IMG/VR virus record: IMGVR_UViG_3300042923_000252
Span: 1-55,621 of that record
Direction: 5' to 3' (one strand)
Length of the DNA stretch: 55,621 nt
From: a virus
This document shows, piece by piece, positions 1 through 35,262 of this stretch. How positions within the stretch are numbered: position 1 is the first letter of the stretch; the number at the start of each line of letters is the position of its first letter. The notes under the pieces are model-generated. The model saw only the letters and a list, made by a program, of their open reading frames with translations. It had not been told where the DNA came from and did no database searches. The translations under genes were made by a program, and so were the position numbers.

Positions 1-239
1 CCTTCCTTCGATCGTGTACGGGTTACGAATGAACAGAAGGCTCTCTGAGCCCCTAACTCGGCTTCGCCGCTCCAGCGTCTCCTAGACCCCCTAAACGGCC
101 CTCAGAGCCCCTCTCAGGCCCCTTCTCGACCCCACATGGCCTCTGAGCCTCTCTAGCAGGTCAGAATGAATGAATCATGAACCCTCAACTGTGTGATCTG
201 GGCCTCATTTTTTCATGATTCTGTCCAAAACAGGTTCCA

Positions 240-262
240 TTGACACCGACATCTATATTGTA
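240..262 (+). promoter_or_regulatory. Possible promoter, twin of central block
   Basis: A perfect TTGACA at 240-245 starts the block TGACACCGAC-A-TCTATA, nearly identical to 25,123-25,138. No good -10 hexamer stands 16-18 bp downstream, so a standard sigma-70 promoter is not shown. The conservation of the block and of its 38-bp spacing to an upstream TGTGATCTGGG suggests a regulatory role. Confidence 0.3.
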
Positions 263-15307: not shown

Positions 15308-15528
15308 TCAGTCTCCTTGTTGGTCGGCTGTCGGCTCTCCAGCTCATCCCGAGCCACGGACAGCATGTGAATCAGCGTGTTGAGGTCGTCAAGACCCAAA
15401 CCATTTTCCGACTCCGGATATTCATGACTTCCGAAGTTGAGATCGACCTCGCTCCGGTCACCCCCAAAGGTGACCGTGACGAAGTAACTACTCCCATACA
15501 GCAGATGAGAAAGACGCGTCTCAATCAT
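15304..15528 (-). CDS. Hypothetical protein
   Basis: A 74-residue protein: IETRLSHLLYGSSYFVTVTFGGD, then a helical second half LDDLNTLIHMLSVARDEL. Overlaps both neighbours by 4 bases. Not recognised. Confidence 0.7.
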   Translation of the reverse strand: MIETRLSHLLYGSSYFVTVTFGGDRSEVDLNFGSHEYPESENGLGLDDLNTLIHMLSVARDELESRQPTNKETE

Positions 15529-16082
15529 CGGCCTGTCCGAATGTTGCGGTTCATAATCTGCGTCAGGCTGTCGACAGCCCGGTAAGAGGCTCGACGCTCG
15601 TTGGCGTCCCTCGGAGGCAGGCCATAGATGAAGACTCGCTCAACGACTGCCTTGTAACCCTCAGAGAGCTTGTGGAGGCCCTTCTGAGCATCAATGCGAG
15701 CAGTCACGATGTTGTCCGAGATCTTGGCCTGAGTCAGGTCGTCCTTCTTGCCGATGACCTGCCCAATCTCCTCGTCCGAGTAGACGAAGGACCGGAGAGC
15801 GATTCGGACCTCATCGGGGGTGTAGAAGTACTGATCGTCCATCAGGTCATAGTGGTTGCGCTCCTTCGCAGCGAAGCGCTTGCCGGCAGTCCAGCAGACC
15901 TTTCGGAGGAAGTCAGTGTCCCCGAAGTGAGGAGCAAGACGCTCACGCTCCTCCAGGAGGTGAACCATGATCTCCTGCTTCACATCATCGGCTTCAACCA
16001 CCGACCACTTCTCAGCAATCTCATAGGCGACCTTGCCTGCAATCTCGATGACCGGCTCCCAGTCGAACTCAGTCTTGGTCAC
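15525..16082 (-). CDS. Sigma-factor-like / HTH protein
   Basis: A 185-residue protein. VEADDVKQEIMVHLLEERERL resembles region 2 of sigma-70-type factors (the 'DLxQExxxxL' part), followed by FLRKVCWTAGKRFAAKE. A second helical domain (about 110-180, GYKAVVERVFIYGLPPRD and YRAVDSLTQIMNRNIR) could be region 4-like. Such divergent sigma-like proteins occur in actinophages between RNR and exonuclease genes. A role in middle or late transcription is inferred only. GTG start in a GTGA overlap. Confidence 0.65.
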   Translation of the reverse strand: MTKTEFDWEPVIEIAGKVAYEIAEKWSVVEADDVKQEIMVHLLEERERLAPHFGDTDFLRKVCWTAGKRFAAKERNHYDLMDDQYFYTPDEVRIALRSFVYSDEEIGQVIGKKDDLTQAKISDNIVTARIDAQKGLHKLSEGYKAVVERVFIYGLPPRDANERRASYRAVDSLTQIMNRNIRTGR

Positions 16083-23732: not shown

Positions 23733-23759
23733 GGGCCATGTCCCTGAATGACATGGCCC
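23733..23759 (-). terminator. Terminator of gene 23775-24107
   Basis: GGGCCATGTC / GACATGGCCC, a perfect 10-bp stem with a 7-base loop; on the minus strand it is followed by TTTTTC. It separates the gene upstream from the nuclease gene. Confidence 0.9.
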
Positions 23760-24295: not shown

Positions 24296-24796
24296 TCAGT
24301 TGTTAGAGGTCGGAGGCAGCTCCAGCGCCCTCCGAAACCTCTCATCTGGGAAGGGAATCGCTTTCGGCCAGTCGATGACCCGGTTCCCGTCCTGGGGTGT
24401 CCGGGGCCTGTAGTACCACCCGTCGACAGTGTCCGGGTCGTAGCACAGCACCTCGTTGTGCTCTCTCAGCCGGCGCTCCCAGCGCTCCGCTAGAAGAAGC
24501 TGCGCCTTGCTCAGGGTGTCGTCCCCGAGCCGTCTCCGTAGCCAGACCTTCAGTGCCTTGGCGCTGTACCTGTTGTGGTGCCCGGTCCCCTCCTTCGGGG
24601 CCCAGATCGACCAACGCGTTGCCAGGGCTTCGTTGACCTGCTTGGAGATGGGCTTCCGGAACAAGCCCAACTTGGACAGCCTCTTGTTCACTGCCTGAAC
24701 GGTGACACCGTACTCCTTGGCGATCTCCTTGTCGGAGACGTCCCGGTGATACAGCTTGACTAGCTCATGATCAGGCGGTAGCAGAGTGGTGGGCAT
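24296..24796 (-). CDS. Probable immunity repressor (HTH protein)
   Basis: A 166-residue protein with an N-terminal helix-turn-helix at about 11-42: ELVKLYHRDVSDKEIAKEYG then VTVQAVNKRLSKLG. The remainder is basic and aromatic (WLRRRLGDD, RWERRLREHNEVL), with no known effector domain. It is first in the leftward direction, has its own terminator and faces an operator-rich control region, just as the L5-type repressor gene does. It is the best candidate to bind the 13-bp GTTGAWWCGAGAC sites. Two motif variants (24897, 24990) lie upstream, so autoregulation is likely. It could instead be a Cro-like or early activator protein. Confidence 0.7.
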   Translation of the reverse strand: MPTTLLPPDHELVKLYHRDVSDKEIAKEYGVTVQAVNKRLSKLGLFRKPISKQVNEALATRWSIWAPKEGTGHHNRYSAKALKVWLRRRLGDDTLSKAQLLLAERWERRLREHNEVLCYDPDTVDGWYYRPRTPQDGNRVIDWPKAIPFPDERFRRALELPPTSNN

Positions 24797-24896: not shown

Positions 24897-24909
24897 CTCT
24901 CGTTTCAAC
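24897..24909 (-). promoter_or_regulatory. 13-bp motif copy 12, upstream of repressor
   Basis: GTTGAAACGAGAG on the minus strand, 100 bp before the repressor start. With GTTACT 18 bases downstream it could be the -35 of a weak promoter for the repressor. Confidence 0.5.
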
Positions 24910-24989
24910 ATGTGATGTACGTCTCACTTCAATACGGAGTCTTGCGTTCCCTTTGAGCTACCCCCATAGGCATCACACGTCACAATCTG

Positions 24990-25002
24990 GTCTCGATGCA
25001 AC
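24990..25002 (-). promoter_or_regulatory. 13-bp motif copy 13
   Basis: GTTGCATCGAGAC on the minus strand, one mismatch. No clear -10 follows. Confidence 0.5.
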
Positions 25003-25083
25003 GTTGTGGCCCCACCGTAAACCACCTAGTAACCTTTGGCCAACGCACTTATTCAGATCAAGACACCCAACCCTGTGATCTGG

Positions 25084-25096
25084 GTCTCACTTCAAC
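25084..25096 (-). promoter_or_regulatory. 13-bp motif copy 14
   Basis: GTTGAAGTGAGAC on the minus strand, two mismatches. It lies in the segment that resembles the left end (TGTGATCTGGG at 25074-25084). Confidence 0.45.
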
Positions 25097-25171
25097 ATCC
25101 TGTGTCACAAACCCTAGGCGAGTGACACCGACGTCTATAGTAGAAGAGAAAAGAGAAAATACTTAGTAGTT

Positions 25172-25194
25172 ACTCGGTTCCTGAAGAACCGAGT
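25172..25194. repeat. Inverted repeat before the rightward promoter
   Basis: ACTCGGTTC and GAACCGAGT form perfect 9-bp arms with a CTGAA loop, ending where the -35 begins. It may be an activator or repressor site. Confidence 0.6.
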
Positions 25195-25223
25195 TGACAC
25201 GAGACTCTCTTAGTAGTTATACT
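25193..25223 (+). promoter_or_regulatory. Rightward promoter with overlapping motif copy 15
   Basis: TTGACA (25194-25199), 18-base spacer, TATACT (25218-25223): the best sigma-70-type promoter in the window. The motif variant GTTGACACGAGAC (25193-25205) covers the -35. In L5 the operator overlaps the -35 TTGACA of the early promoter in the same way. The -10 lies in the loop of a 10-bp inverted repeat (25205-25214 / 25227-25236). Predicted start near 25,230. Confidence 0.8.
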
Positions 25224-25236
25224 AGAACTAAGAGAG
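25205..25236. repeat. Inverted repeat around the -10
   Basis: CTCTCTTAGT and ACTAAGAGAG form perfect 10-bp arms; the 12-base centre contains the -10 TATACT. A dimeric regulator bound here would block open-complex formation. Confidence 0.65.
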
Positions 25237-25253
25237 AAGTTAGTAAGTAAGTA

Positions 25254-25277
25254 GTGAGTCTCCTTAAAGAGACTCAC
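25254..25277 (+). terminator. Internal hairpin of the leader
   Basis: GTGAGTCTC / GAGACTCAC, a perfect 9-bp stem with a CTTAAA loop. The tail AAGTTTCCTT is only weakly U-rich, so it may be a structural or pausing element. Confidence 0.55.
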
Positions 25278-25316
25278 CCTAAGTTTCCTTCTTGTTGATC
25301 TCCCTGTTGAGTAAGT

Positions 25317-25342
25317 AGCCGACCCTTGAAGGTCGGCTTTTT
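25317..25342 (+). terminator. Intrinsic terminator before late genes
   Basis: AGCCGACC / GGTCGGCT, a perfect 8-bp stem with a CTTGAA loop and a following T-run (25338-25342). It stands about 100 bp after the main rightward promoter and before all late genes, so late expression must bypass it or start elsewhere. Confidence 0.88.
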
Positions 25343-25354
25343 AGTTCCAGGTTG

Positions 25355-25367
25355 ATTGATTCGAGAT
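25355..25367 (+). promoter_or_regulatory. 13-bp motif copy 16
   Basis: ATTGATTCGAGAT on the plus strand, two mismatches at the ends, between the intrinsic terminator and the hairpin before the HNH gene. Confidence 0.5.
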
Positions 25368-25381
25368 CCAAGAGGGTAGTT

Positions 25382-25416
25382 GGCCCCGGCTGCTAGACCA
25401 GTATCCAGCCGGGGCC
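25382..25416 (+). terminator. Hairpin before HNH gene
   Basis: GGCCCCGGCTG / CAGCCGGGGCC, a perfect 11-bp stem with a 13-base loop, between motif copy 16 and the GGAGG of the HNH gene: the usual motif, hairpin, ribosome-binding-site order. Confidence 0.65.
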
Positions 25417-25437: not shown

Positions 25438-25755
25438 ATGCCCAGGGCGAAGAGTGTATGTCTCACGGCCGGCTGCCCCTCCAAGACTTTCCGCGACGGC
25501 CGGTGCCGAGAGCACCAAGTTCGGAAACCCTGGCAGAACACATCGGCCAGGAACCAGAGCCGGCCCGGTAACTGGCCCTCCATCAGGGCCAGGGTGCTTG
25601 CTCGGGACAGGTTCGCTTGTCAAAGCTGCGGAAAGAGATCCGAGCTTGAGGTGGACCACATTGTCCCGGTGGCCCGGGGAGGCTCCTGGGAGTTGGACAA
25701 CCTCTGGACCTTGTGCAAACCGTGCCACGGTGCCAAGACGAGGAAGTTCGGCTAA
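25438..25755 (+). CDS. HNH endonuclease (first late gene)
   Basis: A 105-residue HNH nuclease: CLTAGC and a second Cys/His pair near the N-terminus, then CQSCGKRSELEVDHIVPVARGGS, DNLWTLCKPCHGAKTRK. HNH proteins next to terminase genes in siphoviruses often assist terminase cleavage. Here it is about 1.9 kb before terminase, with tRNAs and small genes between. ATG at 25438 chosen for the GGAGG before it; an earlier ATG lies four codons upstream. Confidence 0.93.
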   Translation: MPRAKSVCLTAGCPSKTFRDGRCREHQVRKPWQNTSARNQSRPGNWPSIRARVLARDRFACQSCGKRSELEVDHIVPVARGGSWELDNLWTLCKPCHGAKTRKFG

Positions 25756-31795: not shown

Positions 31796-31820
31796 GCCCT
31801 CCCCTCCGGAGGGCTTTTTT
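31796..31820 (+). terminator. Terminator between scaffold and capsid genes
   Basis: GCCCTCC / GGAGGGC with a CCTCC loop and six T: a classical intrinsic terminator. It probably trims upstream messages while the capsid gene is read from its own promoter or by partial readthrough. Confidence 0.9.
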
Positions 31821-31840: not shown

Positions 31841-32929
31841 ATGGCTACTACGCATCACTTTAATCTTGACCCGAAGCAGGTGACCATTGCTGCTCTGGGT
31901 CTGCTGGACCGTCAGCTCACCCTTGGCTCCATCCCGGCTCGTTACTCCGAGCTGGACTTCACCGGTGGCCTGGGTGACGTCATCAACGTCAACCGTCCTT
32001 CCCGGAGCATCCCGGTTCAGGAGACTGGTGTCTCCAACATCATCAAGAACCCGATCACGGGTGACAAGAACGTCTTCGCCGCGGCCTCGGACCGTCCGCT
32101 GCCTTCGGCTGCGCGTCGGGCCCCGAACGGCTTCATCAACGAGACCCGGTTCCCGGTCCAGCTCACCACGCTGGCCCAGAACGCCTCCACCCTCTCGATG
32201 GAGCAGGTTGCCTTTGACCTGAAGAAGTTCGGTGGCCAGGTGCTGGCTCCGCTGACCCGCGGTATGGCCGAGTACTTCGATGACACGATTGCCGCTTGGA
32301 TCAAGGCCAACATCACCCGTTCCGCGCTGACCACGGCGCAGAAGACGGCCATCGGTGGTGACGTTGAGGTCTCCATTCCGCAGTACGACGGTACCCGTCA
32401 GAACATGATGGACCGTGCGCTTGCCCTGCGCGTGGCCTTCGTTGACGCTCGACTGCACCTGAACCGTGCGAACGTTCCGCACTCCGAGCGGTACGTCATC
32501 GCCGGCCCCGAGGTTGAGGCCATCCTTCTGAAGGACCCGGAGTTCGTGGCCGTCGACTATAGCGGTGACACCAACGCCCTTCGTCGGGCCACCATCGGTT
32601 CCTTCTACGGCTTTGACGTCGTGGTCCACAACTCGTTCGACCTGGAAATGTACTTCTTCCACAAGAGCGCGTTCCTCCTGGCCTCCGTGTGCCCGGCCAT
32701 CCCGATGGGTGCCGTCACCGGCTCGGTCCAGAACGTGAACGGCATCGCCACCCGCATGCTGGTCGACTACGACTACGACCTCAAGGCGGACACGATCGGC
32801 CTGGACACCATGTACGGCTTCACCACGATCAAGGAAGACCCGGACTACAACGTCCGCGGGACCCTGATCGGTGAGAAGTTCGTCCGTGGCCTCAAGGTGA
32901 ACATCACCGAGGTTGCTCCGACTCCGTGA
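31841..32929 (+). CDS. Major capsid protein
   Basis: A 362-residue coat protein following scaffold, with P22-coat-like/HK97-fold features: VTIAALGLLDRQLTLGSIP, INVNRPSRSIPV, LTTLAQNASTLSMEQVAFDLK, YVIAGPEVEAILLKDPEFV, GSFYGFDVVVHNSF, ATRMLVDYDYDLKADTIG. Codon choice is visibly the most GC-rich and regular of the genome, as expected of the most expressed gene. Confidence 0.93.
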   Translation: MATTHHFNLDPKQVTIAALGLLDRQLTLGSIPARYSELDFTGGLGDVINVNRPSRSIPVQETGVSNIIKNPITGDKNVFAAASDRPLPSAARRAPNGFINETRFPVQLTTLAQNASTLSMEQVAFDLKKFGGQVLAPLTRGMAEYFDDTIAAWIKANITRSALTTAQKTAIGGDVEVSIPQYDGTRQNMMDRALALRVAFVDARLHLNRANVPHSERYVIAGPEVEAILLKDPEFVAVDYSGDTNALRRATIGSFYGFDVVVHNSFDLEMYFFHKSAFLLASVCPAIPMGAVTGSVQNVNGIATRMLVDYDYDLKADTIGLDTMYGFTTIKEDPDYNVRGTLIGEKFVRGLKVNITEVAPTP

Positions 32930-34612: not shown

Positions 34613-34635
34613 ACGGCCCTTTGGGGCCGTTTTTT
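34613..34635 (+). terminator. Terminator before major tail protein
   Basis: ACGGCCC / GGGCCGT with a TTTG loop followed by TTTTT: intrinsic terminator between the connector genes and the major tail gene. Confidence 0.88.
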
Positions 34636-34665: not shown

Positions 34666-35262
34666 ATGCCTTCTGGAGATGCAAAGAAGATCCGGTTTGC
34701 ACCGGATGGAATGATCTACCTTGCCCCCGTCTCTGAGTCCCTCGTCCTTCCTGAGGAGGTCGGTGACGGTGCCACTGCCCCCGCGGGTTTCAAGGCCCTC
34801 GGTTACGTCTCGGAGAACGGCGTCACCCTGACTCCGACCATTCAGACCACGCCTATGCCGGCCTGGCAGTCTGCGGCCCCGGTCCTCTACAACGTGGACT
34901 CCGCGGCCTTCCAGATGCAGGCCACCCTTCTGGAGGCGTCCAAGCTCGTCACGGAGACCTTCTTCGGTGCCGAGTGGCAGGAGGTCGTTGAGGACGTTGC
35001 CGGCGTTCCTACGCCGACCGGTGAGTACAAGCTGACCCTCAGCTCTCTTCCGGAGCTGAAGGAGTTCGCCATCGTCGTTGACTGGCGTCACGGCGAGCAC
35101 CTGTGGCGAGTCGTCATGGAGCGCTCGATGGTTGCCGAGCGTGGCGCCATCACCCTCCAGCGGACGCAGTCCCAGCAGTTCGAACTCACCATTGACGCGC
35201 TGGACTCCGCGGGCAACCTCGGACACGTCTACACCACGGAGAACATGGGCAACACTCCCTGA
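34666..35262 (+). CDS. Major tail protein
   Basis: A 198-residue tube protein: IRFAPDGMIYLAPVSESLVLP, LGYVSENGVTLTPTIQTTPM, FQMQATLLEASKLVTETFFG, FAIVVDWRHGEHLWRVVMERSMV, FELTIDALDSAGN. Strong, regular codon use and flanking terminator and motif-hairpin module suggest high separate expression. Confidence 0.93.
   Translation: MPSGDAKKIRFAPDGMIYLAPVSESLVLPEEVGDGATAPAGFKALGYVSENGVTLTPTIQTTPMPAWQSAAPVLYNVDSAAFQMQATLLEASKLVTETFFGAEWQEVVEDVAGVPTPTGEYKLTLSSLPELKEFAIVVDWRHGEHLWRVVMERSMVAERGAITLQRTQSQQFELTIDALDSAGNLGHVYTTENMGNTP

Follow-up and report, generated by a model that had tools for sequence, protein, structure and literature searches.

The 5′ end of the late operon in a relative of Streptomyces phage Ibantik, represented here by a 55,621-base virus record from IMG/VR that was analysed over its full length (the window), was found to carry a conserved RNA fold in leader position, a two-site box and an operator-like sequence overlapping a consensus promoter, together with conserved terminators inside the operon. 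We favour, at a probability of roughly 0.45, the interpretation that this site represents a structured late-operon leader, with two predicted promoters (designated here as P1 and P2) and an element that would confer resistance to terminators.

Genomic context

The leftward genes of the window start from a repressor gene (24296-24796), and the rightward genes from an HNH endonuclease gene (25438-25755, plus strand; PF01844, E 8e-14; Ibantik gp57), the first gene of the late operon, which is followed by two tRNA genes and by terminase, portal, capsid, tail and lysis genes. P1, P2 and the leader occupy the non-coding gap that separates the leftward early genes from this HNH-tRNA-terminase-capsid operon. 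Since the relatives of the window include prophages in Streptomyces chromosomes, and since Ibantik encodes a serine integrase, the phage group is temperate. About 30 related phages and prophages served as the comparison set for the control region.

A conserved two-arm RNA element in the late leader

A sequence-only reading of the window had recognized an intrinsic terminator in the hairpin at 25317-25338 (8 pairs and then TTTT, with T also as the final base of the stem). This hairpin is indeed present, and was shown to be the tip of a bigger conserved RNA fold, which spans positions 25287-25416. Arm 1 of this fold (25287-25376, plus strand) is composed of helices A (25287-25294/25369-25376), B (25297-25302/25363-25368) and C (25303-25306/25348-25351), such that CCTTCTTG-TT-GATCTC-CCTG (25287-25306) pairs across the tip hairpin with CAGG-GAGATC-CAAGAGGG (25348-25376). 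Arm 2 (25382-25416, plus strand) is a hairpin, termed D, with an 11-bp stem and the loop CYAGWnnAGnAnC, for which 28 distinct sequences were obtained. The minimum-energy fold of the single sequence gave the same structure (z -6.9). The element, which starts about 60 nt from the predicted P2 start, is about 95-140 nt in length and has a variable tip.

A covariance model (R1) trained on 10 relatives retrieved 22 further distinct members (E 5e-6 or better, with one good match per locus), all 22 of which are positioned at the start of a late operon. The resulting alignment of 32 sequences displayed two-sided changes at 22/29 pairs and 97.6% paired cells, a result matched by 0/500 shuffles; as the alignment was fitted to the model, it favours the structure, yet slid controls (32-57% paired) agree with it, as does a table of helices A, B and C that was segmented by hand. 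Across the 32 sequences, two-sided changes were observed at 8/8, 3/6 and 3/4 pairs of helices A, B and C, respectively. For hairpin D alone, the 28 distinct sequences exhibited such changes at 8/11 pairs, and 98.4% of cells were paired compared with 88% in shuffles (0/500 shuffles). The 10 close sequences alone provide thin support, with one pair exhibiting two-sided changes, the weight being carried by the wider set. The D loop is retained even in cases of extensive stem replacement, for example in locus L053. Furthermore, the hand-segmented table contained 16 G.T cells against 1 A.C cell, consistent with a plus-strand RNA. Leader position and RNA fold are thus both well supported.

A model restricted to hairpin D (R2) matched 9/393 Streptomyces genomes, once each. 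When the window was compared with Rfam 15 at gathering score, its two tRNAs passed and nothing else did; sub-threshold matches, the best of which reached 15-20 bits and all of which lay below gathering, were judged to be due to chance. As far as Rfam and the literature searched go, the RNA element is undescribed. Consistent with the earlier claim that no coding frame is present, no start-codon ORF of at least 60 aa was found between P2 and the tip hairpin, and stop-free stretches of at least 20 codons near this interval begin only at 25319 and 25360. A leader peptide was rejected, as no conserved frame was visible by eye.

Predicted start signals and repressor sites

P2 (25194-25223, plus strand) is an exact TTGACA-N18-TATACT sequence, and its designation in the sequence-only reading as the best promoter of the window was borne out: it is the sole site scoring at least 11/12, all other listed promoter-like sites in the 55.6 kb scoring 9/12. 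In simulated windows, such sites numbered 0.08 on average, and 12/150 windows harboured at least one. The pattern TTGAC[AT]-N17/18-TA.ACT was present at the P2 position in 13/13 close relatives, and P2 is absent from distant relatives of the window phage. Both inverted repeats reported around P2 were also found to be perfect. The first, HP1 (25172-25180/25186-25194, plus strand; 9 bp), abuts the -35 hexamer and was observed in 12/13 close relatives, each time in the same register against TTGACA and with compensating sequence changes. The second (25205-25214/25227-25236, plus strand; 10 bp), which holds the -10 hexamer in its loop, is peculiar to the window genome and was rejected as a functional feature.

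Upstream of P2, a bipartite box of 67 bp, P1 (25075-25141, plus strand), was identified, consisting of an upstream element, GTGATCTGGGTCTCAC (25075-25090), and of GTGACACCGACGTCTATAGT (25122-25141), the starts of which are 47 bp apart. In relatives, the consensus reads GTGA..TG..TCTCACTT, followed 47 bp on, start to start, by TGACACCGACaTcnwTAGT, and the length of the box is fixed at 66-67 bp in many of them. A weight matrix, for which 15 sites from outside the window served as the training set, recovered two sites only in the window, at 25075 (78.7) and 193 (64.8), the third best scoring -2.8. The second copy (193-259, plus strand) is located at the left genome end and has equivalents in relatives: the two best sites in Ibantik are at 24720 and 194, and left-end boxes were found in Ponzi at 173 and, weakly, in Success at 171. 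In the window, the left-end copy is followed by hairpins with GAATGAATGAATT linkers (193-480, box included), with no rightward gene nearby, and this stretch represents a candidate left-end non-coding RNA, to be compared with its counterparts in D29 and WC1.

An interpretation of P1 as a sigma70 promoter was rejected, as the -10-like TATAGT varies (CTTAGT, ATCAGT) and no -35 is present at 17 bp; because no -35 fits, P1 is likely to be read by a phage factor. With P2 absent, P1 constitutes the sole evident late start signal in distant relatives. The conserved HP1 stands upstream of the P2 start, implying that RNA enters the leader from P1. On these grounds, P1 is probably the general late promoter, with P2 as an addition in close relatives, the activity of both promoters being predicted.

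One candidate factor for P1 is the putative sigma-like protein encoded at 15525-16082 (phrog_354, 'sigma-K factor', E 4e-21), for which a single-sequence structure model was poor (pLDDT 53). The sequence-only reading had listed this protein as a possible antiterminator; if it is a sigma factor, reading the P1 box would be its more natural role. Its gene adjoins that of a ribonucleotide reductase; in R4, a sigma factor from a different PHROG is likewise annotated close to the reductase.

The repressor gene (24296-24796, minus strand) encodes an immunity repressor of the L5 gp71/R4 type (phrog_3929, E 1.4e-10), with further matches to phrog_357 (E 2.9e-7) and to R4 gp29 (34% identity over 68 aa, E 2e-9), and with 62% identity to Ibantik gp55, which is annotated as an immunity repressor. 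Repressors of the L5/R4 type bind stoperator sites and block both initiation and elongation. In the window, the 13-mer GTTGAWTCGAGAC occurs at 22 sites with no more than one mismatch, compared with 0.25 expected, and these asymmetric sites follow transcription, lying on the minus strand in leftward regions and on the plus strand in the late operon. The array as a whole comprises about 25 GTTGAWTCGAGAC sites over positions 6980-55181, with a consensus that differs between close relatives.

The motif copy previously noted across P2 was confirmed as GTTGACACGAGAC (25193-25205, plus strand), an operator variant that overlaps the -35 hexamer and differs from GTTGAWTCGAGAC by two mismatches. The stoperators of Ibantik are themselves GTTGACACGAGAC, those of L004 and L014 are GTTGATAAGAGA and those of L007 and L096 are GTTGANNTGAGA, and the eighth base of the P2 operator (C, A or T) matches the stoperator variant of each phage. 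Because this base tracks the phage's own stoperators, the overlap with P2 resembles a real operator, to which the repressor is predicted to bind.

The repressor and stoperator part of the system is of the known L5/R4 kind (PMC9283540, PMC10276819), sharing with it a gp71-type repressor and more than 20 sites of 13 bp, almost all oriented along transcription and one of them over a promoter -35. It differs in that the sites are GTTGAWTCGAGAC and in that the operator-covered promoter faces the late operon. Degenerate stoperator-like copies were additionally observed on the minus strand upstream of the repressor gene (24897-25096), at a spacing of about 93 bp (24898, 24991 and 25085), one of which overlaps the P1 upstream element. 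Leftward sigma70 promoters at these copies were rejected, as no -10 was visible by eye.

Internal terminators of the late operon

Two terminators were identified within the late operon of the window, one directly upstream of the major capsid gene at 31841 (31796-31819, plus strand) and one directly upstream of the major tail gene at 34666 (34614-34635, plus strand), both at positions conserved in relatives. Since these terminators are only about 25-35 nt from the respective start codons, the capsid and tail mRNA must cross them. An identical scan for strong intrinsic terminators (stem of at least 6, at least 5 G-C pairs and a U-run) was used for the late operons compared. At least one strong internal terminator was present in 19/19 element-bearing operons, with 40 in sense and 2 in antisense orientation, although these phages are related and the terminators do not represent independent events. 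By comparison, 1/25 element-less operons contained such terminators; in this group the GC content of relatives is about 0.69, versus 0.55-0.60, which makes U-runs rarer, and some stretches are short. None was found in the late operons of eight named actinophages that lack the element, nor in 16/17 terminase relatives without an R2-detected D hairpin, the remaining one (L034) having two. Early operons contain one internal terminator each without the element (at 23759 in the window and 20069 in Ibantik), and the notion that internal terminators occur in late operons only was dropped. The association between element and terminators is suggestive.

Proposed mechanism and alternative explanations

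Under the favoured interpretation, the site would comprise both the control region of the phage late operon and its 5′ leader, with two tandem start signals, namely the phage-specific bipartite P1 and, in close relatives, the added consensus P2, which the L5/R4-type immunity repressor could shut by binding over its -35. Transcripts from P1 and P2 would both run into the two-arm element at 25287-25416, which would most likely bind the elongating RNA polymerase, either by itself or together with a protein of host or phage origin, whereupon the polymerase would become resistant to the intrinsic terminators before the capsid and tail genes. That the element suppresses termination, in the manner of HK022 put or lambda nut, is what we infer. 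The apparent terminator at 25317 would then correspond to the variable tip of arm 1, which may end part of the transcripts in the window genome. The element cannot assist the polymerase past this hairpin, as it is complete only about 75 nt beyond it.

Of the two outcomes that the sequence-only reading had offered for transcription from P2, a late leader with antitermination is the better one: a late-operon leader with a covarying RNA and conserved internal terminators was found, antitermination itself being putative. It is doubtful that the RNA by itself makes the polymerase of an actinobacterial host terminator-resistant, which would define a new cis-acting class, a non-lambdoid put analogue for late genes; a nut-like version, with a protein on loop D, is equally compatible with the observations.

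The other half, a free RNA of ~110 bases, did not hold as a conserved product. Within the stretch that comprises the tip hairpin and its U-run (25317-25342, plus strand), the hairpin is conserved in close relatives with turnover of its sequence, and a U-run of at least four T follows in about 8/14 of them. In about 6/14 it does not, being missing in L001, L004, L005, L014 and L111 and reduced to UUU in L008. In distant relatives, the tip is short and its hairpin is gone, with both arms kept. A canonical terminator at 25317-25342 is thus present in the window genome but is not a conserved function across the relatives. As the U-run is optional and the tip hairpin absent from distant relatives, a free RNA ending at 25343 is not the conserved function, although one ending at the tip hairpin may be made in the window genome.

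These observations bear on the first rival explanation, in which release or processing of the leader would yield an abundant and stable non-coding RNA acting in trans. The consensus P2, located under a repressor site, runs into a non-coding structured RNA with a terminator-like hairpin, and precedents exist in L5, D29 and StarStuff, which make abundant small RNAs from the operator-controlled Pleft (PMC5712189), and in phage WC1, which makes small RNAs at its ends and middle (PMC10986025). Nevertheless, besides the loss of U-run and tip hairpin, the most conserved part of the fold lies beyond the tip hairpin and so outside the short RNA, and the structure always heads the late operon, making this explanation rather unlikely.

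Alternatively, the arms and a chain of hairpins may shield or process the highly expressed late mRNA at its 5′ end, as an RNase barrier or cleavage site or in tRNA release, leaving termination unaffected. The leader contains a further hairpin, HP3 (25254-25277, plus strand), with a CUUAAA loop, and close relatives carry 1-3 such extra hairpins that vary in number and sequence while keeping their shape; tRNA genes are also close downstream, and a hairpin chain without hairpin D precedes the HNH gene in Thermobifida phage P318. This proposal leaves the conserved D loop unexplained, as well as the near confinement of internal terminators to element-bearing operons, and appears fairly improbable.

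A unit that acts simply as an attenuator, or that produces a ~110-base RNA from a plain promoter-terminator pair, fits the sequence of 25194-25342 but is very unlikely, given that the terminator is not conserved as such and that the conserved pairing surrounds the tip. A DNA-level site (packaging, origin or attachment) with untranscribed inverted repeats is extremely improbable: the bipartite box does recur roughly 200 bp inside the left end of the genome, a possible packaging location, but wobble changes are of the G.T and not the A.C type, the left-end sequence common to the window and Ibantik lies far from the 25 kb region, and in the relative P318 the 3′ cos ends have been mapped to a place away from terminase (PMC6893835), so that a packaging site was rejected on the grounds that the genome ends of relatives lie elsewhere.

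Comparison with known systems

A close parallel in arrangement to the favoured interpretation of a leader that would confer terminator resistance is provided by RNA of the put type, which binds the zinc-binding domain of the RNA polymerase beta′ subunit and, unaided by other factors, suppresses both pausing and termination. The put RNA of phage HK022 is ~70 nt in length, forms two stem-loops near early promoters and suppresses termination without a protein (PMC9378689). As in putL and putR, two stem-loop arms occur in the window soon after a phage promoter, in an operon with downstream terminators. However, put belongs to the early operons of lambdoid coliphage and the present element to the late operon of Streptomyces phages; moreover, in a comparison based on the described arrangement, put measures ~70 nt against about 95-140 nt, and the element is marked by a tip that varies and a D loop that is conserved.

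With the lambda N/nut and Q/late leader systems, the window shares late genes behind terminators and a promoter followed by leader RNA. It differs in that its element is larger and folded differently, that boxA is not established and that no N- or Q-like protein was identified, with 0/6 scanned window proteins matching a Q-like protein. A claim of boxA was dropped, as CUCUUUAA-like stretches were visible by eye in some leaders but not in all. The Pleft small RNAs of L5 and D29 resemble the present arrangement in that an operator-controlled promoter is followed by non-coding RNA, whereas theirs lie at the right genome end and are directed towards early genes.

The start of late transcription in L5 and D29 has been described as poorly known (PMC5712189), and the same holds for the activation of late genes in Streptomyces phages. 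To this the analysis contributes a covariance model that defines an RNA family, a bipartite late box present at two sites, and internal terminators that match. If the element does suppress termination without a protein, RNA-only antitermination would extend beyond lambdoid phages, and the element would be usable as a processivity tag in Streptomyces, a host in which long GC-rich gene clusters matter.

Leaders of other actinophages exhibit structures of their own. In R4, phiHau3 and Lika (L119 1-670, L123 1-590 and L126 1-725, respectively), a conserved stem of the form CCTCGG-GTYGA, tip hairpin and CCGAGG stands directly before the HNH gene. It occupies the same position as the element described here and similarly comprises an outer stem whose 5′ strand is followed by GTYGA, along with a tip hairpin, but is without a D hairpin, is unmatched by R1 or R2 and occurs in operons without internal late terminators; it is possibly a second type of leader RNA. 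In Thermobifida phage P318 (L099), about five tandem hairpins with A/T-rich linkers are present at about 2170-2480, upstream of an HNH-like gene.
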